64,000 nt of DNA, from assembly GCF_026151205.1 (NCBI RefSeq), contig NC_087081.1, positions 16,232,837-16,296,836 of the forward strand, written 5' to 3'. A model generated the notes under the pieces. The model made no database searches, had not been told where the DNA came from, and was given only the letters and a program-made list of their open reading frames with translations. This document shows, piece by piece, positions 13,801 through 60,744 of this stretch. Numbering within the stretch: position 1 is the first letter of the stretch; each line of letters opens with the position of its first letter. This stretch comes from Bolinopsis microptera (Eukaryota > Ctenophora > Tentaculata > Lobata > Bolinopsidae). The translations under genes and the position numbers were made by a program.

Positions 13801-14288
13801 CAATATACGGTGTACCCAGTATACAGTATACAGTGTACAATATACATGTATACAGTATACAATACAATATACATGGCGTTAATTCATTAGTCGTCGTATA
13901 GTACCATGAGAGATACTATTTTTGAGAAACAGTATTTGCAGGCATGGTACGTGAGATATGGTACCTTAGAAATCAGCATTTACAATTTACAGGTACTTTA
14001 CAGGCACTGGGCATAATTCTCTTTACACCAGAAATCCCTCTATCCCAAATACTCCCAACACGTGATACTTACTAAATACACGTGTCACGTGCCTGACACT
14101 GGCTAAGCAGCTCTGTTCAGTGAGCGGTGTTTTAGGAGGGCAGTGTTATACAGTGTTGGGATACTAATCCTGCCTCCTAGTGTTGGGATACTAATCCTGC
14201 CTCCCACAGTTAAACACTGCTACTGAATATTCAACGTCTCCCCTGCTCTGAAACTTACTGTCTCCTTTCAACTACACTTGTAATATAA

Positions 14289-14320
<32 letters not shown>

Positions 14321-14796
14321 GTTTTGTTACTAAGGTCCCCCCCACATAAACAAACCACTATATAGTTGTATAATGACTGTGAGTAGTGGTGCCTAGTCGC
14401 CGGTCTGGGACCGTGCCAAATAGTAGTGAGACGGTACTGTGATACTGTCCGAATACCTCCTATAATACACATCTAATTAGTACATGTTACTAATTACATG
14501 TTACTTATGATTACCCTGAAATAGACAAGGACTATCGATTAGAGTCTACACAGGTTTGTAACCATTATCACATACCACCACTACAACACCACTGTTAGTA
14601 GCCTGTAGCATCTATACTAATAATCTCAAGATGTGTTTCGTTTGTTCGCTCGCGTGTAATTTCCTAACGGCTTATTCAAGAAAACGGTAAGAGTTACGGG
14701 GCTGGTTCTTGACGAAGCCAAATGATAAAAGTTTTAAAAATCGGTCGATGGTAAATGTAATACTGAAGTGTGTGTGTACTCTCCCACTTTCGCTCC

Positions 14797-14879
<83 letters not shown>

Positions 14880-20800: not shown

Positions 20801-22689
20801 ATCTCTGATTACTTCTACTGTTTGATATAATATCTCAATGTTCAGATCTAATTTAATCTATTGGTTGTTGTTGTTGTTGTACTTTATGGAAGACAGCAGC
20901 ATGGTTTATTTAACGTTAACTAGGGAATCTTCCCTTCTGAAAATTCAAATAAATGTTGAGATCCTTACCCGTAAACCCCGGCCTTAATCAGTACCAGCCT
21001 GGTTCAGCTTATCCCGGCTAAATCTAAAGTTTTTTGAAGTCAATCCCTTCCAAAACAAATAGTTTCGCTCTATCAATCAAAATTCTGAAATCAGTTTGAG
21101 CTCCTTGTTGCAGTGACTATTACTTGTGATCTTGTCTGGTCATGCTGCTGTCCCCATAAGGTACTTCATGCATTGCACTGGTTGTTATGATTGTTATGTT
21201 GACTGTCCAGCTAGCCCCCCGCTTTGTTGCATACTTACATACCTTACATACCGCACATACCGTCAAATATTTGTAATCTTTGTGAACAATTATGATCAGC
21301 TTGACTGCGAAATTCTGTGTTCTTGCTGATTTCTCCTTTTAATAACACGATGTTGCTCTTCAAAATATATTTACGTCTGCATATTTCACGGCCCTATCCA
21401 AACACAATTCCCGAATTTGTTGATCACGTGATAAATTTTGTACTGAACCTGCTGCTGGCTAGTTCCACTTTCTCGCTATTCGTTAGCTTTACATTCAGAC
21501 GATCGAAGAAGCAGCAAAAGATGACACGAACGAGAACAAGAAGAGGAGCAAGCTGAACCTCTTCTCCAAGAAGAAAGAAAGTACGGATGAGAAGTGTGAC
21601 AAAGAAAAAGCAACACCCGTCCACACGTCGGACGAAGAAACCCACAACGTTGACAATGTAATTTTCTCCAGTCCTCTATAAAACGTTCTCACGAGTTATC
21701 AGTTCGCACTGTTTTATATCATTATCCCCAGACTTTAGTTGGAGTTGCTCAATGCTTATTCCCGAACTGCGTTAAGCTGCACATGTTTTGCCCCATAAGC
21801 TAGCCTTACGAAGCGTGCAGCGCTGCCCCCCCCCCCCCCCCTTAAGCCCCCCCCCCCCCCCCCCCCCCCTTTAGCAGCACTGAATGTTCCCCTGATGAAG
21901 CCTCTATCACTATGTTGCTATAAAGCTTGCATGTTCAACATTACTTGTCTATTCCCCTGACATTTCATTCAGGTCATATTATTGCACATGTTGACTACTG
22001 CATGGATTTAGCACAATTTAACGAGTTTTAAAACAAATTCGTGATGTTATTTACGCTTATTGTGCTTTTTCATTTACGCATTCTCAAAGCAATATCAGCA
22101 GAAATGGTCGTTCGCACGGGCAGGGCTAAGGAAAATATTGAAATAACTATTGATGATCAAAGTAAAATTGTGGGATATTGTTTGGGAGACTGGGGATTAA
22201 ATCGACCATTTCTACTCTAACCACTTCACAGTCACTTCCCATCACAATGCACTCTTAGTATTTATACTGTTTTCTTAGGGCACGCCTGGAGTGGAGGTCG
22301 GCGCCTGAGCATCATGAGCCCATTACATGTAAGTGTAAACCAGTGGTATTACCACATACTCCGCATACTATCAAGGAACTTAGGAATGTAGGAGATATTG
22401 TAAGGAAATCATTCCTCACCAACATTGATACACTCTGTCAATGTTCTAACCGTATCGCATTATATATCCCCGTTATATGTAGCCTGTTTGTAATCTCCAT
22501 TGCCAGTGTTTTCTCTGTGTTATTTTTTCAATGTTATTCTCGTTTCAGCGGAGCTCAGTTTCCCTGATTATGTCTCGCATTAAGCGGCCCCGAACTACGG
22601 GCCCAGGAACAGGTGCACCCACCTACGGTACGCTAAATAGAGAGCCCTGTCCAGGCACTGACAATTCTATTCTAGACACTGCACCTTAA
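7839..22689 (+). CDS. Acidic Glu/Pro/Ala-rich multi-exon protein with repeated basic clusters (unrecognised)
   Basis: Proposed coding exons: 7839-7895, 7996-8352, 8684-9622, 10221-10271, 10624-10746, 12479-12613, 15048-15218, 17195-17287, 19301-19393, 19774-19887, 20034-20214, 20348-20463, 20619-20771, 21499-21657, then either 22279-22308 or 22549-22689. All junctions are GT-AG and all are phase 0 except the 20214/20348 intron (phase 1). The result is about 923 residues. The ATG at 7839 ([12 protein letters not shown]) follows an acceptor at 7810, so an upstream non-coding exon is likely. The protein is low-complexity and acidic, interrupted by short Lys/Arg clusters with Ser and Phe/Ile/Leu, such as [35 protein letters not shown] and RRLSFG. 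These resemble the effector segments of MARCKS or AKAP12, but residue 2 is not Gly, so N-myristoylation is not expected. I infer a cytoplasmic scaffold or membrane-skeleton protein. The function is unknown. Confidence 0.75.
7996..8352 (+). CDS. Exon 2 of the acidic protein, with a coding EEAAPV repeat
   Basis: The acceptor is cctccccag and the donor gtaagt. The exon is 119 codons and phase 0 at both ends. After a unique segment ([20 protein letters not shown]) come about a dozen copies of the six-residue EEAAPV, encoded by an 18-bp unit. Reading frames on the other strand here are shadows of the repeat. Confidence 0.8.
8684..9622 (+). CDS. Exon 3 of the acidic protein, with about 40 EEPAAV hexapeptides
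   Basis: This 313-codon exon runs from a ttttcacag acceptor to a gtaaga donor, phase 0 at both ends. Roughly 40 copies of an 18-bp unit encode EEPAAV. The phase has no ATG, which is why simple ORF finding misses it. Between about 9350 and 9470 the copies are identical at the DNA level, while flanking copies differ at synonymous sites. The central block has therefore expanded most recently. A more complex tail ([12 protein letters not shown]) ends the exon. Confidence 0.8.
9642..9729 (+). repeat. 26-bp repeat, about three copies, just after a donor site
   Basis: ttgaaccttatgtagcattg plus ctataa is repeated three times. The array begins 20 bp downstream of the exon 3 donor at 9623. Confidence 0.85.
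9730..10216 (+). other. Intron of the acidic-protein gene
   Basis: AT-rich intron DNA between exons 3 and 4, ending in cgtccgccag or, with the alternative acceptor, cgccaggcag. I see no other feature. Confidence 0.6.
10217..10357 (+). CDS. Exon 4 of the acidic protein, with an uncertain frame
   Basis: The coding look is clear on both sides of about 10245, but the frame shifts by one base at gctgcaccctgctgctgaag. Read from the acceptor at 10216, an in-frame TGA follows. The phase is consistent if the acceptor is at 10220 and the donor at GAG|gtagct (10271), giving 51 nt. A longer version ending SKKKGLMSK at 10357 looks coding but leaves the wrong phase for exon 5. The options are alternative splicing, a one-base error in the sequence, or a real frameshift. 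Confidence 0.5.
10747..12478 (+). other. Intron of the acidic-protein gene with E-box/CRE sites
   Basis: A 1.7-kb intron. It contains a composite CACGTG/TGACGTCA cluster at 11555-11612 and a G-run at 12240-12253. The short open frames (for example 10787-11056) run straight through a donor region and show no coding character. Confidence 0.6.
11555..11612. promoter_or_regulatory. E-box/CRE cluster in an intron
   Basis: Within 58 bp there are two TCACGTGA-type E-boxes and two (A/G)TGACGTCAT CRE-type sites. This could be an intronic enhancer. The role is inferred from motif content. Confidence 0.35.
12479..12613 (+). CDS. Exon 6 of the acidic protein, with a basic tail
   Basis: The acceptor is gttccccag and the donor gtgaga. 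The exon has 45 codons, phase 0 at both ends. An acidic start ([17 protein letters not shown]) is followed by a strongly basic amphipathic end with [11 protein letters not shown] and GLKKLRK. This acidic-then-basic pattern recurs in exons 10, 12, 13 and 14. Confidence 0.75.
12648..12703 (+). repeat. Poly-C tract, interrupted
   Basis: Runs of C interrupted by single t residues, 35 bp after the exon 6 donor. Long G/C homopolymers occur beside several splice sites in this window (12648, 41482, 52844 and 57400). Confidence 0.95.
12988..13062. promoter_or_regulatory. E-box/CRE cluster
   Basis: CCACGTGACA and ACACGTGACA are followed by a duplicated gtttgatgacgtcac, giving two CACGTG and two TGACGTCA sites in 75 bp, within the intron between exons 6 and 7. 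Confidence 0.35.
13483..13873 (+). repeat. 23-bp minisatellite, about 15 copies
   Basis: The unit is tacagtgtacccagtataca plus ata. It is rich in GTATAC/GTGTAC self-complementary steps and open in almost every frame on both strands, which explains six overlapping ORFs of 118-137 codons that I do not call as genes. Confidence 0.95.
14290..14317 (+). repeat. Poly-G tract
   Basis: An uninterrupted G run of 28 bases in the intron between exons 6 and 7. Length is uncertain, as for any homopolymer. Confidence 0.95.
14800..14888 (+). repeat. (CT)n microsatellite followed by poly-C
   Basis: About 38 CT dinucleotides, then a run of about 12 C, located 160 bp upstream of exon 7. Confidence 0.95.
15048..15218 (+). 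CDS. Exon 7 of the acidic protein
   Basis: The acceptor is ttgtttcag and the donor gtaaga. The exon has 57 codons in phase 0. It starts [17 protein letters not shown] and continues with AEEAAP-type repeats like exons 2 and 3, but with more codon variation, so it appears older. Confidence 0.8.
15393..15506 (+). repeat. ggttacccct decamer repeat
   Basis: About eleven copies of ggttacccct, interrupted twice by agcct, 175 bp after the exon 7 donor. Confidence 0.9.
15623..16119 (+). repeat. 32-bp hairpin-forming minisatellite, about 15 copies
   Basis: Each unit begins gtctccttgt and ends aaggagact, so AGTCTCCTT pairs with AAGGAGACT inside or between units around a gtgctgactttagta loop. Copies alternate between tgctgac and tgccgac and between tttagta and ttgagta. 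One unit carries an extra cagaga. Confidence 0.95.
16120..17194 (+). other. Intron of the acidic-protein gene
   Basis: Remaining intron sequence up to exon 8. Short open frames only. A CACGTG site lies near 16659 and a CCAAT-type motif near 16812. I see no further structure. Confidence 0.5.
17195..17287 (+). CDS. Exon 8 of the acidic protein, a basic RLSFG exon
   Basis: 31 codons between aatttgtag and gtaaac. The product is [14 protein letters not shown], then [17 protein letters not shown]. The RLSFG motif occurs twice in one exon, each preceded by basic residues, as in Ser-containing MARCKS-type effector segments and PKC/PKA sites (R-x-S). Family membership is inference. Confidence 0.75.
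17311..17375. promoter_or_regulatory. Dense CRE/E-box cluster after exon 8
   Basis: GTGACGTCACGTGAC, then GTGACGTCAT, TTCACGTGG and ATGACGTCAC within 65 bp, starting about 25 bp after the exon 8 donor. This is the densest such cluster in the window. Confidence 0.4.
17376..19300 (+). other. Intron of the acidic-protein gene
   Basis: A 2-kb AT-rich intron. Apart from CACGTG sites near 18685 and 19180 I see nothing distinctive. An additional small exon cannot be excluded. Confidence 0.5.
19301..19393 (+). CDS. Exon 9 of the acidic protein
   Basis: 31 codons between aatctcag and gtttgt: [20 protein letters not shown], then ETEEEIKEK. Acidic, phase 0 at both ends. Confidence 0.7.
19774..19887 (+). 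CDS. Exon 10 of the acidic protein, with a basic cluster
   Basis: 38 codons between aatttccag and gtgatg. An acidic start ([14 protein letters not shown]) leads to the basic/hydrophobic cluster [15 protein letters not shown] and an acidic end (TEDAAAPE). Confidence 0.75.
20034..20463 (+). CDS. Exons 11 and 12 of the acidic protein
   Basis: Exon 11 (20034-20214) is acidic and ends with a split Glu codon at gtaagg, the only phase-1 intron in the gene. Exon 12 (20348-20463) follows tgtttcag. It encodes a basic cluster ([20 protein letters not shown]), then [17 protein letters not shown] before gtctat. Confidence 0.75.
20619..20771 (+). CDS. Exon 13 of the acidic protein, with a basic cluster
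   Basis: 51 codons between ttctttcag and gtatta. It starts acidic ([19 protein letters not shown]), then has the highly charged [18 protein letters not shown] block. Phase 0 at both ends. Confidence 0.75.
20772..21498 (+). other. Intron of the acidic-protein gene
   Basis: About 0.7 kb between exons 13 and 14, with a short (ttg)n run near 20863 and a TCACGTGA site near 21425. No further structure seen. Confidence 0.55.
21499..21657 (+). CDS. Exon 14 of the acidic protein
   Basis: 53 codons between ttacattcag and gtaatt, phase 0 at both ends. It contains the basic cluster [16 protein letters not shown] and then a mixed polar segment ending DEETHNVDN. It can be joined in frame to either 22279 or 22549. 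Confidence 0.75.
21826..21869 (+). repeat. Poly-C tract, interrupted
   Basis: Two long C runs separated by ttaag, in the intron before the terminal exons. Confidence 0.95.
22279..22328 (+). CDS. Terminal exon A of the acidic protein (short C-terminus)
   Basis: After the acceptor tttcttag the frame reads GTPGVEVGA then TGA at 22306-22308. The exon continues untranslated to 22328, where catgtaagt provides a canonical donor. The stop is therefore followed by another splice site, so an untranslated exon may follow. Confidence 0.6.
22549..22689 (+). CDS. Terminal exon B of the acidic protein (alternative C-terminus)
   Basis: After the good acceptor ttctcgtttcag at 22548 a phase-0 open frame of 46 codons ends at TAA 22687-22689. 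It includes [15 protein letters not shown] and a tail [17 protein letters not shown]. If exon A is skipped, exon 14 joins it in frame. If exon A is used, this is 3' UTR. The tail has normal composition, unlike the rest of the protein. Confidence 0.55.
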   Translation, partial: RSSVSLIMSRIKRPRTTGPGTGAPTYGTLNREPCPGTDNSILDTAP

Positions 22690-25848: not shown

Positions 25849-27015
25849 CACCCTAATTTTTTTGTGAAACTTGGTTTCGAGATAGCAGTTGAACAACAAA
25901 CTAGGACCGGTGACCGAACTTTTGAGGGGGTCCTGGACCCCAACCGCCAAACGGTGCCCGCGGGGCAGCCACGCCCATATTTGGTCCAAATTAGGCCCAA
26001 TTTAGCCAAATACCCTCAACATGCCCAAAACCCAGATTTTAGGTGCTTTACTTGTAGCTAGTGGTCCCCTGAACTCGTATATGAATTTTCATCAAGATTG
26101 GACAAAAAATGACTGAGTTATGAGCCAAAAACCATATGCCCATATTTGGGTATACGCACCAAATTTGGTCGATTTTGGCCCATAAATTGGTCAAATATCA
26201 ATATTTTTGAATGAAACCAACTTTATATGGAAGGTAAGCCTATACTACACATTCTCTATGATTATCAGCTCAGTATCTACCTAACTGTGGATTCTGTGCT
26301 CAATTAATCGCAAAAAATGAACAAAATCGCCCATATCTCAGTTCGCGATATTTGCGAAACTGATTTCGTTCAAAACAATAGAACTCAATAGGGTTTCAAT
26401 ATTTTTACATGAAATTTTCAGAATCAACGTAGAATCGCATTTCGACCTTAAGTTTTCATATGGAATTTTGAGTTAGGCCTTTAAAAAAATTTGGCGGCCA
26501 AATTCTGAAAAATGCCCGATTAATTGAGCACAGAATCCACAGTTAGGTAGATACTGAGCTGATAATCATAGAGAATGTTTAGTATAGGCTTACCTTCCAT
26601 ATAAAGTTGGTTTCATTCAAAAATATTGATATTTGACCAATTTATGGGCCAAAATCGACCAAATTTGGTGCGTATACCCAAATATGGGCATATGGTTTTT
26701 GGCTCATAACTCAGTCATTTTTTGTCCAATCTTGATGAAAATTCATATACGAGTTCAGGGGACCACTAGCTACAAGTAAAGCACCTAAAATCTGGGTTTT
26801 GGGCAAGTTGAGGGTATTTGGCTAAATTGGGCCTAATTTGGACCAAATATGGGCGTGGCTGCCCCGCGGGCACCGTTTGGCGGTTGGGGTCTGGGACCCC
26901 CTCAAAAGTTCGGTCACCGGTCTTAGTTTGTTGGTCAACTGCTATCTCGAAACCAAGTTTCACAAAAAAATCAGGGTGAACCCCCCCCCCCCCCCCCCCC
27001 CTTAACAATGGTCAA
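25808..27015. mobile_element. Large foldback element with ~500-bp inverted arms
   Basis: The left arm (about 25808-26322) and right arm (about 26511-27015) are inverted copies separated by roughly 200 bp. For example, ggttcaccctaattttt on the left matches a complement with aaaaaaatcagggtgaacc on the right, and gattctgtgctcaattaatc pairs at the inner ends. Each arm carries the same short open frame (FVKLGFEIAV...CFTCS), which I regard as non-genic. Poly-G and poly-C runs mark the outer ends. The family is not recognised. A single strand would form a very long hairpin. Confidence 0.85.
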
Positions 27016-27236
27016 AAAATAGTCCATTAACAATGTTATTGTTAATGGTCTGGCCCGGCGAGCACTTGCCATCGGGCCATTTCGAGAAGATTTTCGAGAA
27101 CATTTCGAGAAGAAAGCGGCGCGCGCTACTTCGAAGAAATTTAGACGAGTAACATCCGTCAATATTTTTATTTCAATCCTGCCTCATTTTGTATCCGGGA
27201 TACTATCCCTTACAATACGTAGCAAATTACTTGGGG

Positions 27237-27312
27237 ATCCCAGGCTATTGTGTTCATAAACATGAATAGAGATTCGGCGGAATGACAGGCTGAGCACCGC
27301 CCGGTAAGTAGC
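27237..27312 (-). repeat. Dispersed repeat family A, copy 2 (inverted)
   Basis: Contains the complement of the family A core (ggcggaatgacaggctgagc). It is duplicated at 30681-30755 by the segmental duplication. Confidence 0.8.
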
Positions 27313-28959
27313 AAATCGCGAATCTGCGAATCACCCTGGTCACTAATAGTAATTTATACTTCAACTTGGATAGTTGGATCAATCCATTTATTTACTTCGC
27401 AGGTAACTCTGCTTTCGAGGAATTTACCAACAAAAAAACTTTTGTATTAGAGACAAAGTTCGACAATTCAAAAGGATGTTTTAGCTACAAGGGCTAGGTC
27501 TGACGATCCGTTAATGTTATTTCAAATTGACTCTAAATGAATATTAATCGTTAATATTTTAACATGAACTGTTAAATTGCTGTCAACATTCTGTACAAAC
27601 TTCGTAAAAAACCCGGTATAAAAAGGTTGAAGATCATTTTTTATTACTAATGAAAAAATTATTAGGGAGCGTTCACATATAACGTCAGCAAGATTTTGCC
27701 CAATTTTACCCCCCCCCATCCCCCCTGTCAGCAACTGTCAGCATTGAGCGACCCCCTCCCCCCTAATGACGTCAGCATTTTCCAGACGGGGTTTAATGCT
27801 TGGGGAGAGGTCTTCAACTCAGTTCTTAGTTTAGGGTAATACTGTCAAAGGATCACATTTATCCACTGTTACACCTGAACAACATGATTTATATCGAAAC
27901 CACAATAGTCCAACTCAGGGAAGGCAGGGAGAATAGAAGTCGATTATGAAATTGATCATAGTCATTGCTCGCAGAGTTCGTGCCGCTGCTTAATGTTTAT
28001 CTAAAGAACCCACAAGTATTGACCGCGGATCATTTTCCCATTGATCATCCACCGTAAATACCTGTAATACTAATTATAAAGTCATCTTTACTACACGAGG
28101 ATAGTTTTCAATAAAATCTACCATTTTATCACATGAATTCTGTGACCTCATGTGCCTCTTCTTTTTTATAATTAAGTTCTGCCATGTTTGAAGTCTGGTG
28201 TGATTGTTTCACGAGAATTATTATCAGAAATTTCAGTTAAAAAATAACATGATCTGGAGTTAGAGATCACCACGTGCGGTTCCAGATCACTATTATACGC
28301 ACGTGCATTATCTCAATATAAAGGAGCTGTTGCTCCAGGTCTTTTTACCAGCTGCTGCACCACCTTCTGGTCTATTTTCTTAGGTTAATAATAATATTGA
28401 TGATTAGTGAAAGCTGAATCACCTTGGTGTGCAATATAATATTTATTGCAGTACGTTTATAAATTTTACCAGTATACCTACTGCACGATTCAACGTTTTG
28501 TTTTATCTTGGCTGATTATTTGATTTCTCGATACAAGAAAAGCCTCTAGCAATTTCAATAGTGAAATGTGAGTGAGGAGAGCCCTGTGTAGAGTGTTCGC
28601 GTATAAATAGCACGTACCTTATCGGCCATTTTAATGTCCGTTAAAATAAAGTCCGTTTACTAGTTATAAGGTCCGTTCAACTTCAAGTCAAAGTCTGTTG
28701 AATTTTTCCCACGAAAGTATTCCACTACGAACATATTTTCCAGGATATGACTACTTTTTAATTTCGGTAAATTCCAATTTCTACAATCGGACTAAATTAT
28801 ATCACCATTTTTACTGCTAACGACTGCTTTTTTATTTGTACTAGTGCGTTGTTCGTTTGATTAAATTCCTTCTCAAATAAACAGTTCATTAAACAAGCAC
28901 CTAGTTCAGGTTGAATTAAGTTTTACCTTACTTAAGAAAGACGAGTGGCAGCAAAAGAA
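27313..28959 (+). other. Upstream region of the truncated receptor copy
   Basis: No gene seen. It holds a C-rich run with gacgtcagc near 27709-27775, CACGTG sites near 28270-28305, and a TATAAA-type sequence at 28317-28323. The intact copy has the same sequence at 30760-32408. Confidence 0.5.
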
Positions 28960-29575
28960 ATGTGGGCAGGTTCAATGATGATGATGTGTATAACAACAGG
29001 TCTTACTCACGGTCTAGGTAAACTACTGTACAAGTGATTTTGTAAAAATGTGTTTTAAATTTTAACAATATGCAAACAATTTTAAAATGATTAAGACTAA
29101 TGTATTAACCGAGTGAATAATTTCAGGAAATTCCCAGTACATGGAAGTGAACAACTTATTTCTGACCGAACTATCTGAAAATGGAACATTCAAATGTTAT
29201 CGAGAGGACAAATACTTCAAGATCCTGTCAAGCTATGAACTTGAAAACAAGGACAATCAGGGAGCACCTTTAAAAGCACACCGGGTGAGCCAAAAATGTT
29301 ATGATGACATCGGAACTGAGCTTGGGTCGTATCAGGCGTGTATTGTTAACGGCTATACTAAAGGTGGGTCCTGTGGTAAAGTTTGTTCTGATTATAATGA
29401 GAATCACTTGGTATGGCCAGTAGTTTTACCCCCAGAGACAATGTGTGATGGCGTAGAGGACTGTCAGGATCTAGGACCGGTGACCGAACTTTTGAGGGGG
29501 TCCTGGACCCCAACCGCCAAACGGTGCCCGCGGGGCAGCCACGCCCATATTTGGTCCAAATTAGGCCCAATTTAG
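28960..29575 (+). pseudogene. Truncated 5' copy of the LDLa receptor gene
   Basis: Exon 1 (28960-29017, signal-peptide exon) and the first 344 bases of exon 2 (29127-29470) match the intact gene at 32409-32919. The match includes both splice sites, with only one or two base differences. At 29470, in the middle of the first LDLa module (CDGVEDCQD), the frame runs into duplicated foldback-element sequence and stops at 29573-29575. The product would be a secreted fragment without membrane segments. It arose as the 5' copy of the tandem duplication and still has its full upstream region, so it could be transcribed. Confidence 0.9.
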
Positions 29576-32500
29576 CCAAATACCCTCAACATGCCCAAAA
29601 CCCAGATTTTAGGTGCTTTACTTGTAGCTAGTGGTCCCCTGAACTCGTATATGAATTTTCATCAAGATTGGACAAAAAATGACTGAGTTATGAGCCAAAA
29701 ACCATATGCCCATATTTGGGTATACGCACCAAATTTGGTCGATTTTGGCCCATAAATTGGTCAAATATCAATATTTTTGAATGAAACCAACTTTATATGG
29801 AAGGTAAGCCTATACTACACATTCTCTATGATTATCAGCTCAGTATCTACCTAACTGTGGATTCTGTGCTCAATTAATCGCAAAAAATGAACAAAATCGC
29901 CCATATCTCAGTTCGCGATATTTCATATGGAATTTTGAGTTAGGCCTTTAAAAAAATTTGGCGGCCAAATTCTGAAAAATGCCCGATTAATTGAGCACAG
30001 AATCCACAGTTAGGTAGATACTGAGCTGATAATCATAGAGAATGTTTAGTATAGGCTTACCTTCCATATAAAGTTGGTTTCATTCAAAAATATTGATATT
30101 TGACCAATTTATGGGCCAAAATCGACCAAATTTGGTGCGTATACCCAAATATGGGCATATGGTTTTTGGCTCATAACTCAGTCATTTTTTGTCCAATCTT
30201 GATGAAAATTCATATACGAGTTCAGGGGACCACTAGCTACAAGTAAAGCACCTAAAATCTGGGTTTTGGGCAAGTTGAGGGTATTTGGCTAAATTGGGCC
30301 TAATTTGGACCAAATATGGGCGTGGCTGCCCCGCGGGCACCGTTTGGCGGTTGGGGTCTGGGACCCCCTCAAAAGTTCGGTCACCGGTCTTAGTTTGTTG
30401 GTCAACTGCTATCTCGAAACCAAGTTTCACAAAAAAATCAGGGTGAACCCCCCCCCCCCTTAACAATGGTCAAAAAATAGTCCATTAACAATGTTATTGT
30501 TAATGGTCTGGCCCGGCGAGCACTTGCCATCGGGCCATTTCGAGAAGATTTTCGAGAACATTTCGAGAAGAAAGCGGCGCGCGCTACTTCGAAGAAATTT
30601 AGACGAGTAACATCCGTCAATATTTTTATTTCAATCCTGCCTCATTTTGTATCCCTTACAATACGTAGCAAATTACTTGGGGATCCCAGGCTATTGTGTT
30701 CATAAACATGAATAGAGATTCGGCGGAATGACAGGCTGAGCACCGCCCGGTAAGTAGCAAATCGCGAATCTGCGAATCACCCTGGTCACTAATAGTAATT
30801 TATACTTCAACTTGGATAGTTGGATCAATCCATTTATTTACTTCGCAGGTAACTCTGCTTTCGAGGAATTTACCAAAAAAAAAACTTTTGTATTAGAGAC
30901 AAAGTTCGACAATTCAAAAGGATGTTTTAGCTACAAGGGCTAGGTCTGACGATCCGTTAATGTTATTTCAAATTGACTCTAAATGAATATTAATCGTTAA
31001 TATTTTAACATGAACTGTTAAATTGCTGTCAACATTCTGTACAAACTTCGTAAAAAACCCGGTATAAAAAGGTTGAAGATCATTTTTTATTACTAATGAA
31101 AAAATTATTAGGGAGCGTTCACATATAACGTCAGCAAGATTTTGCCCAATTTTACCCCCCCCCCCCCATCCCCCCTGTCAGCAACTGTCAGCATTGAGCG
31201 ACCCCCCTCCCCCTAATGACGTCAGCATTTTCCAGACGGGGTTTAATGCTTGGGGAGAGGTCTTCAACTCAGTTCTTAGTTTAGGGTAATACTGTCAAAG
31301 GATCACATTTATCCACTGTTACACCTGAACAACATGATTTATATCGAAACCACAATAGTCCAACTCAGGGAAGGCAGGGAGAATAGAAGTCGATTATGAA
31401 ATTGATCATAGTCATTGCTCGCAGAGTTCGTGCCGCTGCTTAATGTTTATCTAAAGAACCCACAAGTATTGACCGCGGATCATTTTCCCATTGATCATCC
31501 ACCGTAAATACCTGTAATACTAATTATAAAGTCATCTTTACTACACGAGGATAGTTTTCAATAAAATCTACCATTTTATCACATGAATTCTGTGACCTCA
31601 TGTGCCTCTTCTTTTTTATAATTAAGTTCTGCCATGTTTGAAGTCTGGTGTGATTGTTTCACGAGAATTATTATCAGAAATTTCAGTTAAAAAATAACAT
31701 GATCTGGAGTTAGAGATCACCACGTGCGGTTCCAGATCACTATTATACGCACGTGCATTATCTCAATATAAAGGAGCTGTTGCTCCAGGTCTTTTTACCA
31801 GCTGCTGCACCACCTTCTGGTCTATTTTCTTAGGTTAATAATAATATTGATGATTAGTGAAAGCTGAATCACCTTGGTGTGCAATATAATATTTATTGCA
31901 GTACGTTTATAAATTTTACCAGTATACCTACTGCACGATTCAACGTTTTGTTTTATCTTGGCTGATTATTTGATTTCTCGATACAAGAAAAGCCTCTAGC
32001 AATTTCAATAGTGAAATGTGAGTGAGGAGAGCCCTGTGTAGAGTGTTCGCGTATAATAGCACGTACCTTATCGGCCATTTTAATGTCCGTTAAAATAAAG
32101 TCCGTTTACTAGTTATAAGGTCCGTTCAACTTCAAGTCAAAGTCTGTTGAATTTTTCCCACGAAAGTATTCCACTACGAACATATTTTCCAGGATATGAC
32201 TACTTTTTAATTTCGGTAAATTCCAATTTCTACAATCGGACTAAATTATATCACCATTTTTACTGCTAACGACTGCTTTTTTATTTGTACTAGTGCGTTG
32301 TTCGTTTGATTAAATTCCTTCTCAAATAAACAGTTCATTAAACAAGCACCTAGTTCAGGTTGAATTAAGTTTTACCTTACTTAAGAAAGACGAGTGGCAG
32401 CAAAAGAAATGTGGGCAGGTTCAATGATGATGATGTGTATAACAACAGGTCTTACTCACGGTCTAGGTAAACTACTGTACAAGTGATTTTGTAAAAATGT

Positions 32501-32919
32501 GTTTTAAATTTTAACAATATGCAAACAATTTTAAAATGATTAAGACTAATGTATTAACCGAGTGAATAATTTCAGGAAATTCCCAGTACATGGAAGTGAA
32601 CAACTTATTTCTGACCGAACTATCTGAAAATGGAACATTCAAATGTTATCGAGAGGACAAATACTTTAAGATCCTGTCAAGCTATGAACTTGAAAACAAG
32701 GACAATCAGGGAGCACCTTTAAAAGCACACCGGGTGAGCCAAAAATGTTATGATGACATCGGAACTGAGCTTGGGTCGTATCAGGCGTGTATTGTTAACG
32801 GCTATACTAAAGGTGGGTCCTGTGGTAAAGTTTGTTCTGATTATAATGAGAATCACTTGGTATGGCCAGTAGTTTTACCCCCAGAGACAATGTGTGATGG
32901 CGTAGAGGACTGTCAGGAT
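29471..32919 (+). repeat. Tandem segmental duplication, copy 2 (3449 bp)
   Basis: Nearly identical to 25901-29470. It differs mainly by a deletion of about 100 bp in the foldback loop (junction gatatttcatatgg, with a shared ttt), a 12-bp deletion near 30653, shorter C runs and scattered single bases. The right end continues uninterrupted into the intact receptor exon. Confidence 0.95.
31767..31773 (+). promoter_or_regulatory. Candidate TATA box for the receptor gene
   Basis: TATAAAG lies about 640 bp upstream of the receptor ATG, 25-45 bp before a pyrimidine-rich stretch (aggtctttttacc). Two CACGTG sites lie 25-50 bp upstream. A leader intron would be needed to shorten the 5' UTR. This is weak evidence. 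Confidence 0.25.
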
Positions 32920-35900
32920 GGTTCGGACGAGGATAATTGTGGTGAAGATATTGCGGGGAGATACTGTGCTGCAGATTTCAGTCAACAGATTCCAAAGGAG
33001 TACCTGTGTGATGGGTCTGTACATTATTGCGTAAAAGACAGGCCAGAGATTAAAGATGAATCGGACTGGTGGTGCAACAATGGTAATAGGCCTGGTGCGG
33101 TCGAGAGGATCAAATGCCAAAACATGAAAGGTTTCTTGCATCCAGCAAAGTTCTGTGATGGTACTAACGACTGTGGAGATGCTTATAATTCTGATGATGG
33201 TCCTTATGATGAGTTAAGATGCAATTCTACCCAAAATGAGTCTTATCTGAATGCTGATGGTGGCAGGCTGTGTCAGGACAATGTGACAGGTGATATCAGA
33301 TATCTTTATCCTGAGCAGATCTGTGGTAATCCTAGAGTAACCACGGGTGCTGTTGAAACAGAGGATTTTCGGCCATGCTGGAAAAAGCTTGATCAAATAC
33401 ATTGCAACAAAGAACATACAAGTGTTCATGGCTTAAGATGTCTTCTCGAATATTATTTGGAAAAATACGTAACAGAGAACACACACGAGTATTTTGACCA
33501 TGAGTTACGAAACAGACTGTCAAATAATACCTATAACGAAGAACGAGAAGAAACCATAATATCAAAATACCTGCTCTGTGACGGTGATAGGGATTGCGAA
33601 AATGGTATCGATGAGAAATGTCAAGACCCAAATGAAATGATTGATAATAAAAACAAAAAGGTTAGCGACCAAAATGATATGAATAATATCGCTCGAACGT
33701 GTCTGATACATAGACATCACATTTGTGATGGCTACAGAGATTGTCTAGAAGGAGAAGATGAACTAGACAGTATTTGCGAGACTGACGATTGGCAGAAGCT
33801 GCCTGGGTGTGTGAGAGTAGGAGCCAGGAACTTCGCGGATAGCACCAAAACAAGTTTGATTCATGTAGATTGGATCAAGGATACTATCACAGATTGCAGA
33901 AATGGAGTAGACGAAGAAGATAGAACACAGATTTGTCCGGTCACTTTTACGAATGGAGACCGGCAGCTAAGAAGTTTCAAAGGCGAATGTCCCGAAGTGT
34001 ACAAATGTACAGATGAAATGGAGAATCGGGACAGCTACGTTGAAATCTTTGACCTATGCCAGTCAAGTCTAGACACTTGTGAACGCCAAAACAGAATCTG
34101 TCAGGCAGCAAAGAGAAGACCATCCATAGAAACAACGCCAATCAAAACTTCAAGGGTAGAAGTAGAAGGTATCATCGCCACTAAACATGTGGCCCCTTGT
34201 TTACCTGGTTTGATGAAATATAGACAGTTCAACTGCACGACCAGTGATCAGCATATCTTTGGATCTAAGAATAGGACCTCTGGAATAATGAACACAACTT
34301 GGGTCTATGAAGACAAGGTGCGTGATTGTTCTTATTACTTCGGAGAGACGTTTCTTTTCCTGACATGCAACGATCTTTGTTTTTCAAGGGAAGAATATGC
34401 CCGTTATTGGTACTATTTACATCGGCCATATATTCAACCTCGGAAATGTCCTTTTAAACAACCAAAATACCAAGATGATCTCTTTAGAGACTCTAGAGAA
34501 ACTTATCCAGTAGCAAGAATCACAGTTGAAGACGAGTTTAAAAGTGGAGATATTAAATTGAGATTGGTTGCTAAAATTAAGGACGGTTATCAGCTAAAAT
34601 GGTTTGGATGTGATAATGGCAGAGTGGTTCTTTTGAACGAAGTTTGTAATTTGGTAAACGATTGCGGAGATAACTCTGACGAATTGTACTGCTCTAATTC
34701 AGTGAGCTGCCGAGTTGCAACTGGTTATAATTATGATTCGGATTTCTCAAAAGTATCAAGAATACCACTATCATCGTTCAATGATGGAAAAGTCAATTGC
34801 AAAATAGTAAATGATTATAGTTCTAGGATGAATGACGAGTGTACCTCTCCATGGCTTTCTTTTCTTCTGGGTGAATACTCGGGAAACACCTACACATTTG
34901 CGATTGCCTTTGGTGTGCTGGCAACGGCTATAAATTCTTTTGTCATAGCAAAGAATATTTGGTCTTTGCGGAAAACCACAATGAAGTCGGTGTTATTTGG
35001 AGACACTATATATATTCTCATGATATCTGTTGGGGACTTTTGCATAGGTGTCTATCTTTTATTGTTAATAAAGAACCACTCGAGTTTCGGAACTAAATAC
35101 TGTTCTGAAAAATTTCGCTGGCTCTCATCGAACACGTGTAATTTCTTGGGAGCCCTTAGCACTTTTGGTTCGCAGATTTCACTGCTCTCGATGACTGTCA
35201 TGAGTATTTTGCGAGCAAGAAATCTCTCCAAATCACTTTCGTTTCGTTTTTCGAGACGACTTTTGGCAGTCTACATCATTTTGGCATTGGCAGTTGTAAT
35301 TCTGTCTGTTGCAATAGCGGTAACACCTCTCCTGGATATTTTCGAAGATTACTTCTTGAACGGACAAGTGTATGGAGATTCATACCAGCATCCGAAAGAG
35401 CAAATAAAAATATCTTTTCTCCTTGGACAGCAAACCAAGCGGGACCTTGTCAGTGTTATTGATGCTCATTACGGCTCAACAATCCAAAAGAAACTACTCC
35501 AAAATGGAGAAGGCTTAAGATGGAGTGAAATCAGGCGTCTCTTTGAAGGCATGTTCACAGGATTTTGGAGGAATAAAGATAGTGAAATTTCCGGAATCCC
35601 CTTTGGAAGAGTTGGATTTTATGGAAGTAGTGCAGTCTGTCTCTTTAAATACTTCGTCACCAAAGATGATCCTCAGCATATGTTCTCGATAGCAATATTG
35701 GGGCTGAATTTGGCTTGTTTCGTGATCATCACAGCATCCTACTTGAAAATTCTGCACCAGACCACCAAGTCTAGTCAAGCTGTAGCCGGAGCCAGGGCCA
35801 ACAAATCCATTTTGCTCCAGACAAAGATATCGATGATAATCCTCTCAGATGCAGTATGCTGGCTGCCCTTCATTACCTACGCTTTTCTTCACTATACCGA

Positions 35901-36267
35901 GGTTGAAAATGCAGAGAAGCACTATCTTTTCTTCTCCGTCATCCTTCTACCTGTAAACTCAGTTGTCAACCCAATCATCTACCACTACAACCATTCATAC
36001 GTCAAACAGAAGGGCAGGGAGGTCTTGGCGAGGGTCCGTTCCAGTGATTGTTATTTGGGCTCCGTTTTCTTCCTATCTGAACTTCTCACCAGCACCGTAA
36101 CTTTATTATCAGGTTATGACATCCGATCCACGATCCAACCGATTCTAAAAAGAGTAAATCCTCATTTGGTCTCAACCGTAGTGAGATATAAAGTTGAGAA
36201 CTCTCAAGTTGAAATCGAAGACACTGACATGAAGGAGGATTCTCTCGTTGAAATCGAATGTGATTAA
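32409..36267 (+). CDS. LDLa-repeat rhodopsin-like G-protein-coupled receptor
   Basis: Exon 1 is 32409-32466 and exon 2 is 32576-36267, joined in phase 1 to give 1249 residues. Exon 1 (MWAGSMMMMCITTGLTHGLG) supplies a probable signal peptide. The ectodomain of about 770 residues has several Cys-rich LDLa or LDLa-like modules with the CDG...DC.DGSDE..C calcium-cage pattern. The clearest are near residue 126 (CDGVEDCQDGSDEDNC) and just before the membrane (CNLVNDCGDNSDELYC). I see no leucine-rich repeats, unlike relaxin receptors or snail GRL101. Seven hydrophobic segments start near residue 790. TM6 has CWLP and TM7 ends NPIIY (residue ~1151), typical of class A. The TM3 end lacks a DRY/ERW motif. 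The loop between TM4 and TM5 is about 100 residues, far longer than usual, but keeps the loop-2 Cys (SSAVCLF). Ligand unknown. It probably signals from the plasma membrane through G proteins. Confidence 0.9.
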
Positions 36268-40099: not shown

Positions 40100-41681
40100 T
40101 CAGTTCCCGGCTCCAGTTTTACTCAAATGTTTGATAACATCGACCCAGTCCCAACCCCTCGGCTTGTCGTCCGCATCTATGTTGCCGTATTTGTCGTAAA
40201 AACGTCTTTTTTGACCTTTCGTCATGCCTTTAGTTGAAGCAAGTTTTTCCTTTTCCTTCTTCTCTAAAGCGATGGCTTCCTGACAAAGACAAAAATGATC
40301 AATTACAAAATCAACGGTAGCTATAACACAAGCTAAACAGCATAATTTTGCCACACGTTGTGTCTCATTGACATTAATATTATCACGCGCGGCCGGTAAA
40401 CAGTAAATGGACACGTGTGGAAAATAACGCTGTACTTTATTACGGATGCAAACAGTGAGCACCCAGTAATCATGATTAACTACTTAGACTAATTAGAAAC
40501 CTTCTCCTCTCGCGTTACGACGTTTTCGTTTTTAACCAGCGCTCTAATTTCCTCTAGATTATCAGTCACATAGTTGATAATGTTGAAAGTCATCGCCATT
40601 CCTGACCAGTCATCGTACTGAGAACGAATCTTACCCAGGATCTTTACTTTCTCGTGTGGCTGCAGAATAGAACACTGTTAACTAACACTGTTAACTAAAT
40701 ATTTACCTAATGAACACTGTTAACTTTACGTAAGGGACCTTGCTCGCACCAGTAACTGCACGTTGGTAGTCTTATTACAGTTACACGGTACAGTAAAACC
40801 CCGATTTATCGCGACTGTTTCCTTTCCCCCGCGATAAATTGAGGTTTTACTGTAGTACGCGATAAATTGAGGTTTTACTGTAGTACGAGGGTCCGTTTTA
40901 TGTTTATCACATAGAAAGAGAACTGAATTTAATATGCACCGTCAGGAGTAAGAACTAACCTTAATATGTGAGTCAGGAGTAAGAACTAACCTTAATATGT
41001 GAGTCAGGAGTAAGCACTAACCTTAATATGTGAGTCAGGAGTAAGCACTAGCCTTAATATGTGAGTCAGGAGTAAGCACTAACTTTAATATGTGAGTCAG
41101 GAGTAAGCACTAACCTTAATATGTGAGTCAGGAGTAAGCACTAACCTTAATATGTGAGTCAGGAGTAAGCACTAACCTTAATATGTGAGTCAGGAGTAAG
41201 CACTAACCTTAATATGTGAGTCAGGAGTAAGCACTAACCTTAATATGTGAGTCAGGAGTAAGCACTAACCTTAATATGTGAGTTGAAGAAGCTGTTAAGA
41301 TCTACCACAGCATTCTCGGACTCAGGGTACTTTTTTGGCCACGTTATCTGAAAATAGAAGATGTTAGATTTCATCCCATTACCGCTAATACTATGTAATG
41401 TCAGCAAACCCATCCCATTACCTCTAATACTATGTAATATCAGCAAACCCAACAGATAAAAATAAATAGAGCATTCAAGAAGGGGGGGGGGGGGGGGGGG
41501 GGGGGGGGGGAGGGGGGGGAGGGGGAGGGGAGGGGGGTACCTGTATCATAATACTCTTTAGTTCATTCTCCTCACTGATGAACTTGTAACAGTACACTGT
41601 GTCTTTAATCTGCTTGAAGTTGGTGTCGTCCTCGTATATTGAGAGTAAAACTTCCTGCTCATCGGCCTGGTCATCATTCAT
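40100..41681 (-). CDS. RWDD4: RWD domain-containing protein 4
   Basis: Coding exons on the minus strand: 41681-41541, 41347-41270, 40659-40501 and 40279-40100, all phase 0, giving 185 residues (human RWDD4 has 188). The N-terminal RWD domain starts MNDDQADEQEVLLSIYEDD and continues with ITWPKKYPESENAVVDLNSF. The C-terminus has the family's basic K-G-Q-K-R motif followed by PRGWDWVDVIKHLSKTGAGN, close to human PRGWNWVDVVKHLSKTG. RWD domains bind partner proteins. The exact role of RWDD4 is poorly known. A G/C homopolymer lies directly inside intron 1, and intron 2 begins with a 31-bp array that repeats the exon 2 donor. Confidence 0.95.
40791..40852. mobile_element. Tiny pogo/Tigger-like MITE
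   Basis: 62 bp with ends CAGTAAAACC and GGTTTTACTG extending inward as (c/t)gatttatcgcg and cgcgataaattgagg, flanked by TA on both sides. A TA target and CAG...CTG ends suggest the Tc1/mariner-pogo group. A second copy of the right end follows at 40857-40882. It lies in RWDD4 intron 2. Confidence 0.65.
40941..41270 (-). repeat. 31-bp array repeating the RWDD4 exon 2 splice donor
   Basis: About ten copies of a 31-bp unit. Read on the coding strand, each has actcacatattaag|gttagtgc, the same sequence as the last bases of exon 2 and its donor at 41270/41269. The array starts at the exon edge and runs into intron 2. Confidence 0.95.
41482..41537 (+). repeat. Poly-G tract at the RWDD4 intron 1 donor
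   Basis: G runs with a few a residues. On the coding strand, intron 1 starts gtaccccccc immediately after exon 1. Confidence 0.95.
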
Positions 41682-42084
41682 GATCTTGAAAATTAGTTGA
41701 CTTGAAAATGAGCTGTGAGTAACTGGTTGGTTAATTAATTGTATTAATCGAGGAATTATAATCCTTCGATAAGGTTTGTCTGGGAAAATCCAGAACTTTT
41801 TCTTCCAACTCTTGGATTTATCATTAAATTTAGAACAACTGTATTTTTATATTTTTCACCGCCAACAAAAACAAAACTCGGATATCTCATGTTGGTATCA
41901 TAAGAGCGAATTGTTGTAAATATTCAGATAACTTCATTCACATGTGAGTCTATTAACATGATTAGGTAAAAAGGAAAATCTCGACTGGTTAAAGATTAAA
42001 TATGGTACTTGTTCGTTGCAGTCCCAACCGATTAAACTGGTCATGAAATTATATTCCTCTGTTGAGATGATTGTTAAACGCATA

Positions 42085-42142
42085 AATAACACCAGATTAG
42101 CATAATTAACACCATATTAGCATAATTAACACCAGATTAGCT
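42085..42142 (+). repeat. 22-bp repeat, three copies
   Basis: taacaccagattagcataat is repeated with small changes in the ZMAT2 3' flank. Confidence 0.8.
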
Positions 42143-42208
42143 TTAACATGAAGTGCTCGACACTTGTACCATGTACGTTTCTGATCAAGGCATTAAATTG
42201 TTTCCCGG

Positions 42209-44517
42209 CTACTTTCCAAAGCCGCCGAACCCCATTATTGCAGCAAGTTCAGGATCCAGTTCCTCCTCCCCCGCCCCGGCCACGGCCCGCTTCTTGTCCT
42301 TCTTTCGCTGGCGTTTCAGTGCTCTCTGCCGCTCCTCCTCCTCTTGTCGCTCCTGAGCTCGAGCTTCAAGGTCGTAGTCCTCCGCCTAGGTGGGGGACAT
42401 TTCATTATTATGGAATACAAATAAATAAGTAAACTGAATGTTACAGTGCATTCTGAATGTTACAGTGCATTCTGAATGAGAAGTAAAAACAGAAATATAA
42501 ACTTACTTTATTTTTCTCATCGTCCTCCCTCTTTCGTTTATTTTTATCAAATCTGGCTCGGACCTGCTCTAAAGTTGATCTCTCTACTTTCATCGACATT
42601 CCTAAATTTCGTTGATCTGAAAAATAATTTATAAAAATAGTAAAATCATTGGTGGTCTTTGGTGCTGTCAATTAAGAGTTCATCAGAATAAACTACGACA
42701 GACATGATCCACAAGCCACTTGATGACAGCTTTTACTCCACATACTCTAGCAAGATCGAGTATTTGTTTGCTGTAGCCTCAGTGTTTGGGCACGATATTT
42801 AGTAAACTATTATTAATGTATTCGCCATTCGGTCACTAATTGGTGACATGATCTGATCACCGTGGGACCCCTGATAATTGGGTCGTGCAGCCATGAAAAC
42901 AATCAGGATTCCCAGAAACTTACGTTTTTTGCCGTTGATATGATCCAGATAGTTGATGGAATCTTTAACAACACAATCACAAACTTTGCAGTAATAGCCT
43001 CCTTGCATTGCGCTGGGACTGTCTTTTGTTACCACCATAGTCTTCCCCAACTTGGAGTCTAGATCGACCTGCAATTATAGGACTTTAAAAAAAATACTTT
43101 CAACACTACTATATAACAAATAATTCGAGCATGAATACGAAGTTGTTACTTTGAAACGTCGTTTATCCTAACAGTGCAGTATCATTTGTCGCAGTAATAA
43201 GAATAATCAGAAATTATCATCTGCAATCATAGTACTGGAGAGTGGATCATGCGGGCACAATAACCCGGTTAACAGATCGTAATCAATAAGAATGTAATAG
43301 CTTTCGGTCAGTTAAATTAAACTAGTTACGTTATTTCATACCTTGTGGTCTCTAGGTCTAAGAAGTTCTCTTTTAACCTTCCTCTCCGATACGATTTCTG
43401 GTTCTGAAACACATGATATATAAACTTCACAATAATAAACTCGTGATAAATAAACTTCACAATATTAAACACGTGATACATAAACTTCACAATAACAAAA
43501 ATGTTGACCGCTTCTACGAGTTAAATTGAACGCCTGCATCGCCTACATCGGCAATCTATAATACATCTTGCTTGGCAGAGGATATCTGGTATTTAAAATT
43601 AATGCGTAACACGATATACAACCGACATTGAAGAATTTTCCTAATTGTTACAGTGTGGTTATGAGCTAGACGTTTTCTCACCATTTTCTGCGACAAGTCG
43701 GTCTTTCGCTTTCTGAGCATATTCATCTTTATCCCAAGTTTTCCTGTACGTCGTCATATCTATATGATTGTTATTTGTACAGCAAGTTATCAGTAATATC
43801 GTTAACTAGTTTGTATAGCACATGGAAGTGTAGCACAGTTGGGGAATAGTTGAGAGATCGGATCAAATTAAACAGAAAGCGCGTAAAGCAAAATGCTGAA
43901 ATTGTGTGGTTTCTGTATAAAGCTGTATTTGCGCGTAACACGTTATAGTGCGCGGCTCAATGTTGCTTCTGCTGAATTGTAAGTTACTGTTTTTCAGGAA
44001 TTATTATGGTTTATTAGTGATTTTGTGGATAAATGCAACAGCCAGCAACAGTCAAGAGTCGTCTTAAAGTATACTCTAGGACTCTAGCCCCTGCAATGAA
44101 ATTTTAGCCGGGTACTTGAGATATTGGCCTGTTTCCAAAACAGTACTGTGTATAGAAACGTACATATCTAGTTGAGCCAGCCAGAGGTTATCAATAAAAC
44201 AAATAGTTACAAATTAAACAAACGTAGAATAAATTTGAATATTTCACCGCAATCACGTCACTAAACATTAAAGTATTCCCCTGTGACGTCACACCACGTG
44301 TTATGACGTCACGTTAATATGAGCTTAACAGTTAGCTGCATTCATTTGAACATTACCGAAATCTAAAAAGACAATAAACCGATTTTCGCAAAGACTTGGT
44401 CTCCAAAGCGACTGTAACATTGACTTCAGAATGCGATAAAAAGATTAAAATAAAAAATAACACAATATATGAAAAGTCAGAAATATACTAACGGGGCCGG
44501 TTCGAACTAAAGGCCAT
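42209..44517 (-). CDS. ZMAT2: Zinc finger matrin-type protein 2 (spliceosomal)
   Basis: Minus-strand exons 44517-44493, 43759-43682, 43403-43342, 43068-42924, 42616-42507 and 42385-42209 join in matching phases to give 198 residues (human ZMAT2 has 199). The N-terminal exon is tiny (MAFSSNRP) and is followed by [18 protein letters not shown] and [12 protein letters not shown]. The U1-type C2H2 zinc finger is [20 protein letters not shown], then [13 protein letters not shown]. The C-terminus has a charged coiled-coil-like region and ends MGFGGFGK, slightly shorter than the human tail. ZMAT2 is the homologue of yeast Snu23, a component of the U4/U6.U5 tri-snRNP and the pre-catalytic spliceosome in the nucleus. 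CRE/E-box sites lie in intron 1. Confidence 0.96.
43405..43500 (-). repeat. ~30-bp array adjoining a ZMAT2 acceptor
   Basis: Three copies of an attgtgaagtttat(n)atcacg unit (coding strand). The copy nearest the exon ends atcatgtgtttcag and supplies the acceptor for 43403. Confidence 0.8.
44281..44313. promoter_or_regulatory. CRE/E-box cluster in ZMAT2 intron 1
   Basis: TGTGACGTCAC, CCACGTG and ATGACGTCAC within 33 bp, about 200 bp downstream of the proposed ZMAT2 start codon on its own strand. Confidence 0.4.
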
Positions 44518-44519
44518 CT

Positions 44520-45007
44520 AAAAGGGAAGAAATTGAAATGTCATTATCAGACACTTGCTCTGAATTGAGATGCTTTCAATATGGAGTTATAAAGTGAATA
44601 ATTCTGTAACAAATAAGCATGTGCAAATCACTTGTACAACGATTCAAGCAACAAATGTTGGTTGTTCAATGTTCATTAGCAGTACAATAACCATCACACT
44701 TTAATAACATATTCATATCATGTCACATTAAACAATTGGGACAAGGAGACGGTAAGCTTATACTAAAAAGCTTTTAAAGTATTTGATCGGTTAACCCACA
44801 AGTAGTAGTTTCTACAAATGAAATGTTTTTTGAAAGCTCTCAAATAGTTTACACCATCATCCTTATCCAAACAACATAGGGAATCTTTAAAAGAACCAAG
44901 TTTATCATTTGACGGTAAAGTACGCCTTGAACTATAGACATATCATCACATCTAATTAGCTGTTTATAGGTTGATTAACCTGTCAATTAGCTAATCATAT
45001 AATCAAT
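44520..45007. other. Short gap between ZMAT2 5' end and MAP4K 3' end
   Basis: About 490 bp between the ZMAT2 start codon and the MAP4K stop codon, both on the minus strand. It must contain the MAP4K 3' UTR and the ZMAT2 promoter or leader. A pyrimidine-rich ttcttcccttttag precedes the ZMAT2 ATG, so an upstream non-coding exon is possible. Confidence 0.5.
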
Positions 45008-60479
<15,472 letters not shown>

Positions 60480-60481
60480 TT

Positions 60482-60518
<37 letters not shown>

Positions 60519-60537
60519 TTTTTTTTTTTTTATTTTT

Positions 60538-60571
<34 letters not shown>

Positions 60572-60611
60572 TTTTTTTTCTTTTTTTTTGTTTTTTTTTT
60601 TTTTTTTTTTT

Positions 60612-60690
<79 letters not shown>

Positions 60691-60696
60691 ATAATT

Positions 60697-60744
<48 letters not shown>
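60480..60744 (+). repeat. Poly-T tract with sparse interruptions
   Basis: About 265 bp of almost pure T. Such a tract is prone to sequencing and assembly error, so lengths here are unreliable. It could mark a poly-A tail of a retroposed sequence on the minus strand, but no body is recognisable. Confidence 0.95.

Follow-up and report, generated by a model that had tools for sequence, protein, structure and literature searches.

Minisatellite arrays at exon edges in a ctenophore genome: splice junctions inside tandem repeats and a modest excess of arrays near them

Results

We analysed a 64,000-nt stretch of the genome of the ctenophore Bolinopsis microptera (C10:16232837-16296836, GC content 0.388; hereafter the window), in which three neighbouring minus-strand genes between positions 40100 and 59846 carry minisatellite arrays that end close to, or contain, their splice junctions (Table 1). 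The longest we take to be MAP4K-like, Pfam confirming only part of the kinase domain and the CNH domain; the second we assume to be ZMAT2/Snu23-like, with Pfam supplying the zinc finger only; and the RWD-domain gene is presumably RWDD4-like. Exon edges were set by a gene finder, self-trained on 29 kinase reading frames from the same genome, and by hand reading, for which human proteins served in part as a guide. The 21 hand-set introns of the three genes all follow the GT-AG rule, and the joined proteins match CNH (3e-36), Pkinase (1.7e-23), RWD (1.1e-13) and zf-C2H2_jaz (3.2e-7) in Pfam. One ambiguous intron of the MAP4K-like gene (about 56346-56536), holding a coding-like 12-bp repeat, was excluded from the hand-checked introns before these were counted.

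Arrays were called with Tandem Repeats Finder (TRF), which gave 89 rows in the whole window, and were counted if they had a period of at least 7, a length of at least 30 bp and a score of at least 50. Twenty-five such arrays lie in the 21 hand-checked introns: four contain a junction, a further twelve stop no more than 30 bp short of one, and nine do neither. The four junction-containing arrays agree with the initial annotation of this DNA and hold three donors (41270, 46125 and 57576) and one acceptor (50561). The RWD alignment spans junction 41270, and the CNH alignment (residues 396-669) spans junctions 50561 (near residue 492) and 46125 (near residue 643), so that a Pfam domain spans three of the four; junction 57576 lies in a linker outside any Pfam domain.

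Within these arrays the splice site recurs as intronic decoys. Downstream of the RWD-gene donor there are eight copies with the identical sequence ATTAAG|GTTAGT and equal score; donor 46125 has six decoys (AATTAG|GTGTGT) and donor 57576 three identical ones (CTCCAA|GTATGT), again with equal score. Upstream of acceptor 50561 lie 22 copies that score 6.9 to 8.2 bits, against 6.9 for the authentic site (at one decimal). If used, 21 of the 22 acceptor decoys would lead to a stop codon, one (+123 nt) being in frame and read through, and the majority of the donor decoys would shift the reading frame. That the arrays are functional, serving as redundant splice sites or splicing enhancers retained by selection at exon edges, would agree with decoys that are intact and score at least as high as the authentic site, and a C. 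elegans minisatellite is described as over-represented near alternative exons (PMC4039745). The stops and frameshifts argue against such a function, as do the TRF consensus units, which appear to vary between introns, and we regard it as very improbable.

The initial annotation had placed eight further arrays near junctions, in what it described as two genes; three genes are in fact involved. Six of its eight, at 51917, 59457, 43407, 50336-50425, 56809 and 58753, end within 30 bp of a junction, and a seventh, at 9643, ends 20 bp from a donor supported by the gene finder only. The eighth, near 46265, is 37 bp away. The list was also incomplete, six more arrays (at 41372, 41481, 42434, 53079, 58126 and 58528) lying within the same distance. 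Near 46265, a terminal inverted repeat (TIR) transposon (window 46274-49388) lies within an 11-bp GTGTTACAGAA minisatellite that continues on both sides, so that the array there represents half of one that has been split. The element has 18-bp perfect inverted ends, AGGGCATATTTCAAAACT, and, by manual reading, a TACA target duplication; two open reading frame (ORF) pieces (47769-48422 and 48356-48763) had no Pfam match at E 0.01.

Table 1 Genes and junction-associated arrays of the window (distances are from the array end to the exon or splice site)
Feature	Position	Strand	Basis
MAP4K-like gene, first exons not found	45011..59846	-	Pfam: part of Pkinase domain and CNH
ZMAT2/Snu23-like gene	42213..43759	-	gene finder; Pfam zinc finger
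RWD-domain gene	40100..41712	-	gene finder; Pfam RWD
31-bp x 11 array containing RWD-gene donor, exon edge 41270	40941..41283	-	TRF; RWD alignment
39-bp x 2.1 array, acceptor 41347 24 bp away	41372..41451	-	TRF
Low-complexity array, G-rich (transcript: C-rich), almost homopolymer; donor 41541 3 bp away	41481..41537	-	TRF
19-bp x 2.4 array in 121-bp ZMAT2-like intron, donor 28 bp away	42434..42478	-	TRF
30-bp x 3.1 array, ZMAT2-like exon 3 bp away (intron-end CAG at 43404)	43407..43499	-	TRF
40-bp x 11.7 array containing MAP4K-like donor 46125	45660..46128	-	TRF; CNH alignment
21-bp x 4.3 array, donor 50440 14 bp away	50336..50425	-	TRF
41-bp x 22.5 array containing MAP4K-like acceptor 50561	50553..51481	-	TRF; CNH alignment
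24-bp x 9.5 array, 3 bp from exon that ends at 51913	51917..52144	-	TRF
Degenerate 14-bp x 16 array, acceptor 53052 26 bp away	53079..53301	-	TRF
8-bp x 16.6 array, acceptor 56785 23 bp away	56809..56941	-	TRF
44-49-bp x 4 array containing donor 57576	57407..57593	-	TRF
16-bp x 3.8 array, donor 58190 3 bp away	58126..58186	-	TRF
AT array, 15-bp x 2.3, donor 58578 15 bp away	58528..58562	-	TRF
38-bp x 3 array, acceptor 58728 24 bp away	58753..58865	-	TRF
31-bp x 2.7 array, kinase exon 3 bp away (intron-end CAG at 59454)	59457..59548	-	TRF

We counted an array as near when its end lies within 30 bp of a junction, and compared the counts with a null in which one unit, free to reach into the exon by at most half its length, falls uniformly on the intron after subtraction of the array. 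In the 21 introns of the window, 16 of 25 arrays are near or contain a junction (7.8 expected, p 0.0001), and 12 non-containing arrays lie within 30 bp when counted per collapsed base (2.9 expected); the containing arrays themselves show no significant excess (4 against 2.4, more exactly 2.41, expected; p 0.2). Since the window had been picked for this very pattern, its p value is not independent evidence. An independent sample was drawn from four 40-kb blocks at round coordinates and 30 kinase loci, each spanning about 3.7 kb, the latter being the best-scoring PF00069 matches and hence non-random; eight further loci from a DNA search were excluded from the counts. With a gene predictor blind to arrays and an exon score of at least 5, this sample gave 122 predicted introns holding 39 arrays.

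The excess recurred there, which supports this part of the initial annotation's interpretation: 16 of the 39 arrays are near or contain a junction against 9.06 expected (p 0.003), and a count per collapsed base gave 11 non-containing arrays no more than 30 bp from a junction where 5.1 were expected (rate ratio 2.7, p 0.009). Within 10 bp the numbers are 8 against 5.5 (p 0.13), and for containing arrays 5 against 3.0 (3.04; p 0.16). At an exon score of at least 8 and with a null confined to the intron, the excess is smaller (9 of 29 against 4.9, p 0.018, in blocks and kinase loci; 5 of 14 against 1.95, p 0.022, in the window). In eight ranges of the independent sample taken as Pfam-supported genes it amounts to 12 of 21 against 6.5 (p 0.002), and removal of one range lacking its own Pfam hit (block B1, 9183-15525) and of the doubtful last exon of another leaves 10 of 18 where 5.2 are expected (p 0.007); the remaining, less supported introns of this sample gave 4 of 18 against 2.6, which is not significant. 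The window is not special in its minisatellite content, since arrays of at least 40 bp cover 14.5% of it and 21.5, 2.8, 4.3 and 12.5% of the four blocks. There is thus a modest, unexplained, roughly two-fold excess of intronic arrays at exon edges, recurring in a small independent sample.

An artefact of gene prediction, in which array edges attract predicted exon edges, could produce such an excess. An array-aware version of the gene finder was dropped because it turned coding repeats into false introns, and its results are not used as evidence: it gave 17 of 41 arrays near in blocks and kinase loci (7.2 expected) before a filter for coding-like arrays and a correction of the null, and 11 of 30 in the independent set (6.6 expected, ratio 1.67) with a filter that also lost true intronic arrays. 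Pseudo-arrays alone gave an observed-to-expected ratio of 1.56 with this version (52 replicates over all sequences, with placement on exons possible), and the array-aware result proves nothing, because 1.67 is barely above that value. These numbers, and the less supported introns without an excess, speak for the artefact. For the array-blind predictor, the real arrays were transplanted to random positions inside their introns and the genes predicted anew, in 74 replicates. In blocks and kinase loci a mean of 16% of the transplanted arrays were near (maximum nine arrays), against 41% observed, or against 11 of 34 (32%) without containing arrays, transplants having been placed inside introns only; in the window 11% were near, against 50% observed (16 of 32 arrays in predicted introns). 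No replicate of the 74 reached the observed fraction. Together with an excess that is strongest in the Pfam-supported genes, this makes the artefact highly unlikely as the source.

Of the 23 near, non-containing arrays of both sets, six stop at a distance of precisely 3 bp from the exon, five of them in the chosen window (p 0.0001 for a comparison with a uniform distribution over 3-30 bp). This pile-up, which spares the first or last three intron bases, suggests that arrays grow up to the splice signal and are arrested there. Length also differs with position, the median being 88 bp for the 32 near arrays and 49 bp for the 32 far ones (one-sided p 0.018), and among arrays grown to at least three copies there is an excess near junctions (13 against 5.5 expected, p 0.0003). 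The two intron ends are affected alike: of 32 near or containing arrays, 15 lie at the 5' end and 17 at the 3' end. In the blocks, a predicted intron of 4 kb is nearly all array (137 x 29 bp; locus L040 1267-5266, block B1 11267-15266), with 11 and 8 bp left at its ends, and an ABC-transporter array begins at donor position +4.

Intron geometry offers another account of these positions. If arrays were seeded uniformly in introns that had the short length of present array-free ones, and later lengthening came from arrays and transposons, every array might lie near an edge simply because introns were short when arrays arose. Using the 109 array-free predicted introns (window included, median 205 bp) as the null, we expected 18.0 near or containing arrays in blocks and kinase loci, where 16 are observed, and 6.1 containing arrays, where there are 5; in the window, 3.5 containing arrays were expected against 4. 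The fit weakens with a length-biased draw, in which seeding per base puts more arrays in long introns (10.5 expected, p 0.037, in the independent sample; 6.4 in the window), and the window exceeds even the unweighted expectation (16 against 11.3, p 0.046). Geometry would also require the arrays to predate the rest of the intron, though minisatellites should change fast. We consider it unlikely that geometry is the whole explanation.

The initial annotation had suggested, as one of two possibilities, that splice junctions are favoured starting points of tandem duplication; AGGT or GTRAGT words might play the same part. In support of such seeding are the independent excess within 30 bp and three two-copy duplications across predicted donors, one of 67 bp in a VWD gene (L039, block B1 3894-4033) and two of 15 and 17 bp (L012 2275-2306 and L032 133-165). 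Seeding at junctions would lead one to expect surpluses of junction-containing arrays and of young arrays with few copies. Containing arrays number 9 of 64 in both sets against about 5.4 under uniform seeding, a difference significant in neither set; five of the nine lie at predicted junctions in the blocks and kinase loci, one of them (B1 34218) at a doubtful exon. Moreover, 23 of the 32 near arrays exclude the junction, donor and acceptor ends are affected alike, and none of the nine junction-containing arrays holds both junctions of its intron. Nor is junction sequence as such rich in arrays, since in 160 introns arrays cover 9% of the bases lying 10-40 bp from the junctions, the lowest value, and 25-30% of those beyond 300 bp, the highest. 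At array-free intron lengths, finally, no preferential start is needed to account for the independent sample.

In a word test independent of annotation, we searched the 264.65-Mb genome for three copies of an 8-mer separated by gaps of 12-42 bases, which detects periods of 20-50 bp only. The donor 8-mer AGGTAAGT gave 1380 tandem-triple matches, and two permutations with the same dinucleotides, AAGTAGGT and AAGGTAGT, gave 576 and 340. The mirror words of the three gave 12, 0 and 16; the reversed 8-mer was rejected as a motif control (1380 against 12) once the dinucleotide-matched counts were available, because these show most of that gap to be array vocabulary and not splicing. Triple matches overlap within arrays, and their positions are listed for about the first hundred; on contig C1, past whose end each list of matches extends, there are five arrays for AGGTAAGT and three for each permutation. 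As single words, AGGTAAGT is itself 1.37 times commoner than the first control (10758 against 7838; mirror words 7965 and 9455). Donor words are thus about two- to four-fold over-represented in arrays by matches and less than two-fold by C1 arrays, and the difference in array number is too small to carry weight. The word TAATTA occurs in 5 of 34 near and 3 of 40 far arrays, and TTAATTAA-type words were rejected as seeds of junction-near arrays, having shown a weak trend only at these counts. Boundary-seeded duplication is accordingly not established as the cause and is not the best-supported reading; we judge it rather improbable.

The array vocabulary is lopsided in its own right, AGGTAAGT, AAGTAGGT and AAGGTAGT being frequent in arrays and their mirror words almost absent, although the first two mirror words have similar single-word counts; sampled units are rich in CAC, CCC, ACA, ACC and ACT and poor in GAA and ATC. 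Elsewhere in the window, a predicted plus-strand gene (7839-22689) would encode a protein rich in glutamate, alanine and proline, with extended, apparently coding 18-bp repeats (8110-8297 and 8707-9534); it is this gene's predicted donor that lies 20 bp from the array at 9643. A 3-kb direct duplication (26454-29470 and 29921-32919, 99.0% identical) copies the first-exon region of a receptor that has both LDLa repeats and a seven-transmembrane domain (ORF 32566-36267), and a 265-bp interrupted T tract occupies 60480-60744.

Discussion

The reading we favour, with a probability of roughly 45%, is that the arrays are intronic minisatellites of the ordinary sort, in a genome rich in repeats, and that selection halts their outward growth at the exon edge. 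Short tandem duplications would arise anywhere in intron DNA, splice junctions included, and some would expand outward, absorbing flanking single-copy DNA, until selection halted them at the few bases required for splicing and coding. Array ends would then accumulate just inside the exon edge, for example directly before the CAG. A duplication that spans the junction may be tolerated because the exon-proximal copy still yields the right mRNA, as we propose, the remaining copies turning into intronic decoys; intron lengthening would be a by-product. What we observe is the anatomy of the arrays, their excess within 30 bp of junctions, the accumulation of ends at 3 bp and the decoy scores; the outward growth, selection as its stop and the use of the exon-proximal copy are inferred. 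The lack of a significant excess of containing arrays, together with ends that fall short of the junction, favours halted ordinary growth over duplication seeded at AGGT.

Several points weigh against halted growth. Arrays of fewer than three copies also lean to junctions (10 against 6.0 expected, p 0.04), and taken alone the difference between them and the grown arrays does not reach significance (Fisher p 0.105). The proposed growth step must carry the excess, because purifying selection alone removes arrays from edges and adds none. Short ancestral introns, moreover, account for the independent sample without any growth up to a wall. A stronger proposition, which we find doubtful, is that ctenophore junctions are true hot spots of minisatellite birth or outgrowth, where introns would grow from the edge inward and splice sites would routinely be multiplied into equivalent decoys, leaving the exon-proximal one to be chosen.

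Introns are reportedly gained by tandem duplication, with a duplicated segment of the gene itself as the source of intron sequence. The signature expected of AGGT duplication, both junctions lying in copies, was found in none of the nine junction-containing arrays, and there is no sign that an array created an intron, because none holds both junctions of its intron; unlike in such intron gain, it is existing introns that have been lengthened here.

The initial annotation knew of no description of splice-site arrays of this size, a view that does not hold. In amphioxus (PMC3087553), mirages in Adh3 and the globin genes BflGb6 and BflGb9 are minisatellite-like duplications of exon-intron boundaries, for which a model of intron gain is given. 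As in those genes, the ctenophore arrays span the exon-intron boundary (four in the window and five elsewhere at predicted junctions), their units carry copies of the splice signal (here 8, 6, 3 and 22 decoys of the same or higher score), and 5' and 3' boundaries are both affected, the amphioxus units likewise carrying AG/GT signals. For mirages, splicing is normal to judge by reverse transcription PCR, and their length is reported to be unstable; the Bolinopsis arrays are known from DNA only, and from one haplotype. They differ from mirages, which belong to another phylum, in having up to 22 decoys, in the clustering of four cases in 20 kb of neighbouring genes, and in that array ends were counted against junctions. 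The two-copy donor-spanning duplications of L039, L012 and L032 are candidates for nascent mirages.

In human paralogs, internal tandem repeats (mean 30-bp units, four copies) at exon-intron boundaries modify introns and can create new splicing patterns (PMC2812944); that case differs in involving segmental duplications, in its transcript support and in having half of the repeats in coding exons. Human UBC and VCX3A are described as carrying tandem-repeat arrays of dual-specific splice sites (PMC10809524), where the same site acts as donor and acceptor; here no array has both annotated junctions of its intron. Among the titles and abstract openings listed in literature searches, we found no ctenophore report of such arrays. 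Structures of this kind thus have precedents in lancelets and humans, and the ctenophore provides a new instance together with a modest, unexplained surplus of arrays at exon edges.

If minisatellites span exon boundaries in a comb jelly as well, a structure described in lancelets and human paralogs would reach to an early-branching animal. Identical decoys, with up to 22 acceptors in a row, provide natural tests of how the spliceosome chooses among equal sites, and the roughly two-fold edge excess makes the lengthening of introns directly countable, given transcript-based gene models.
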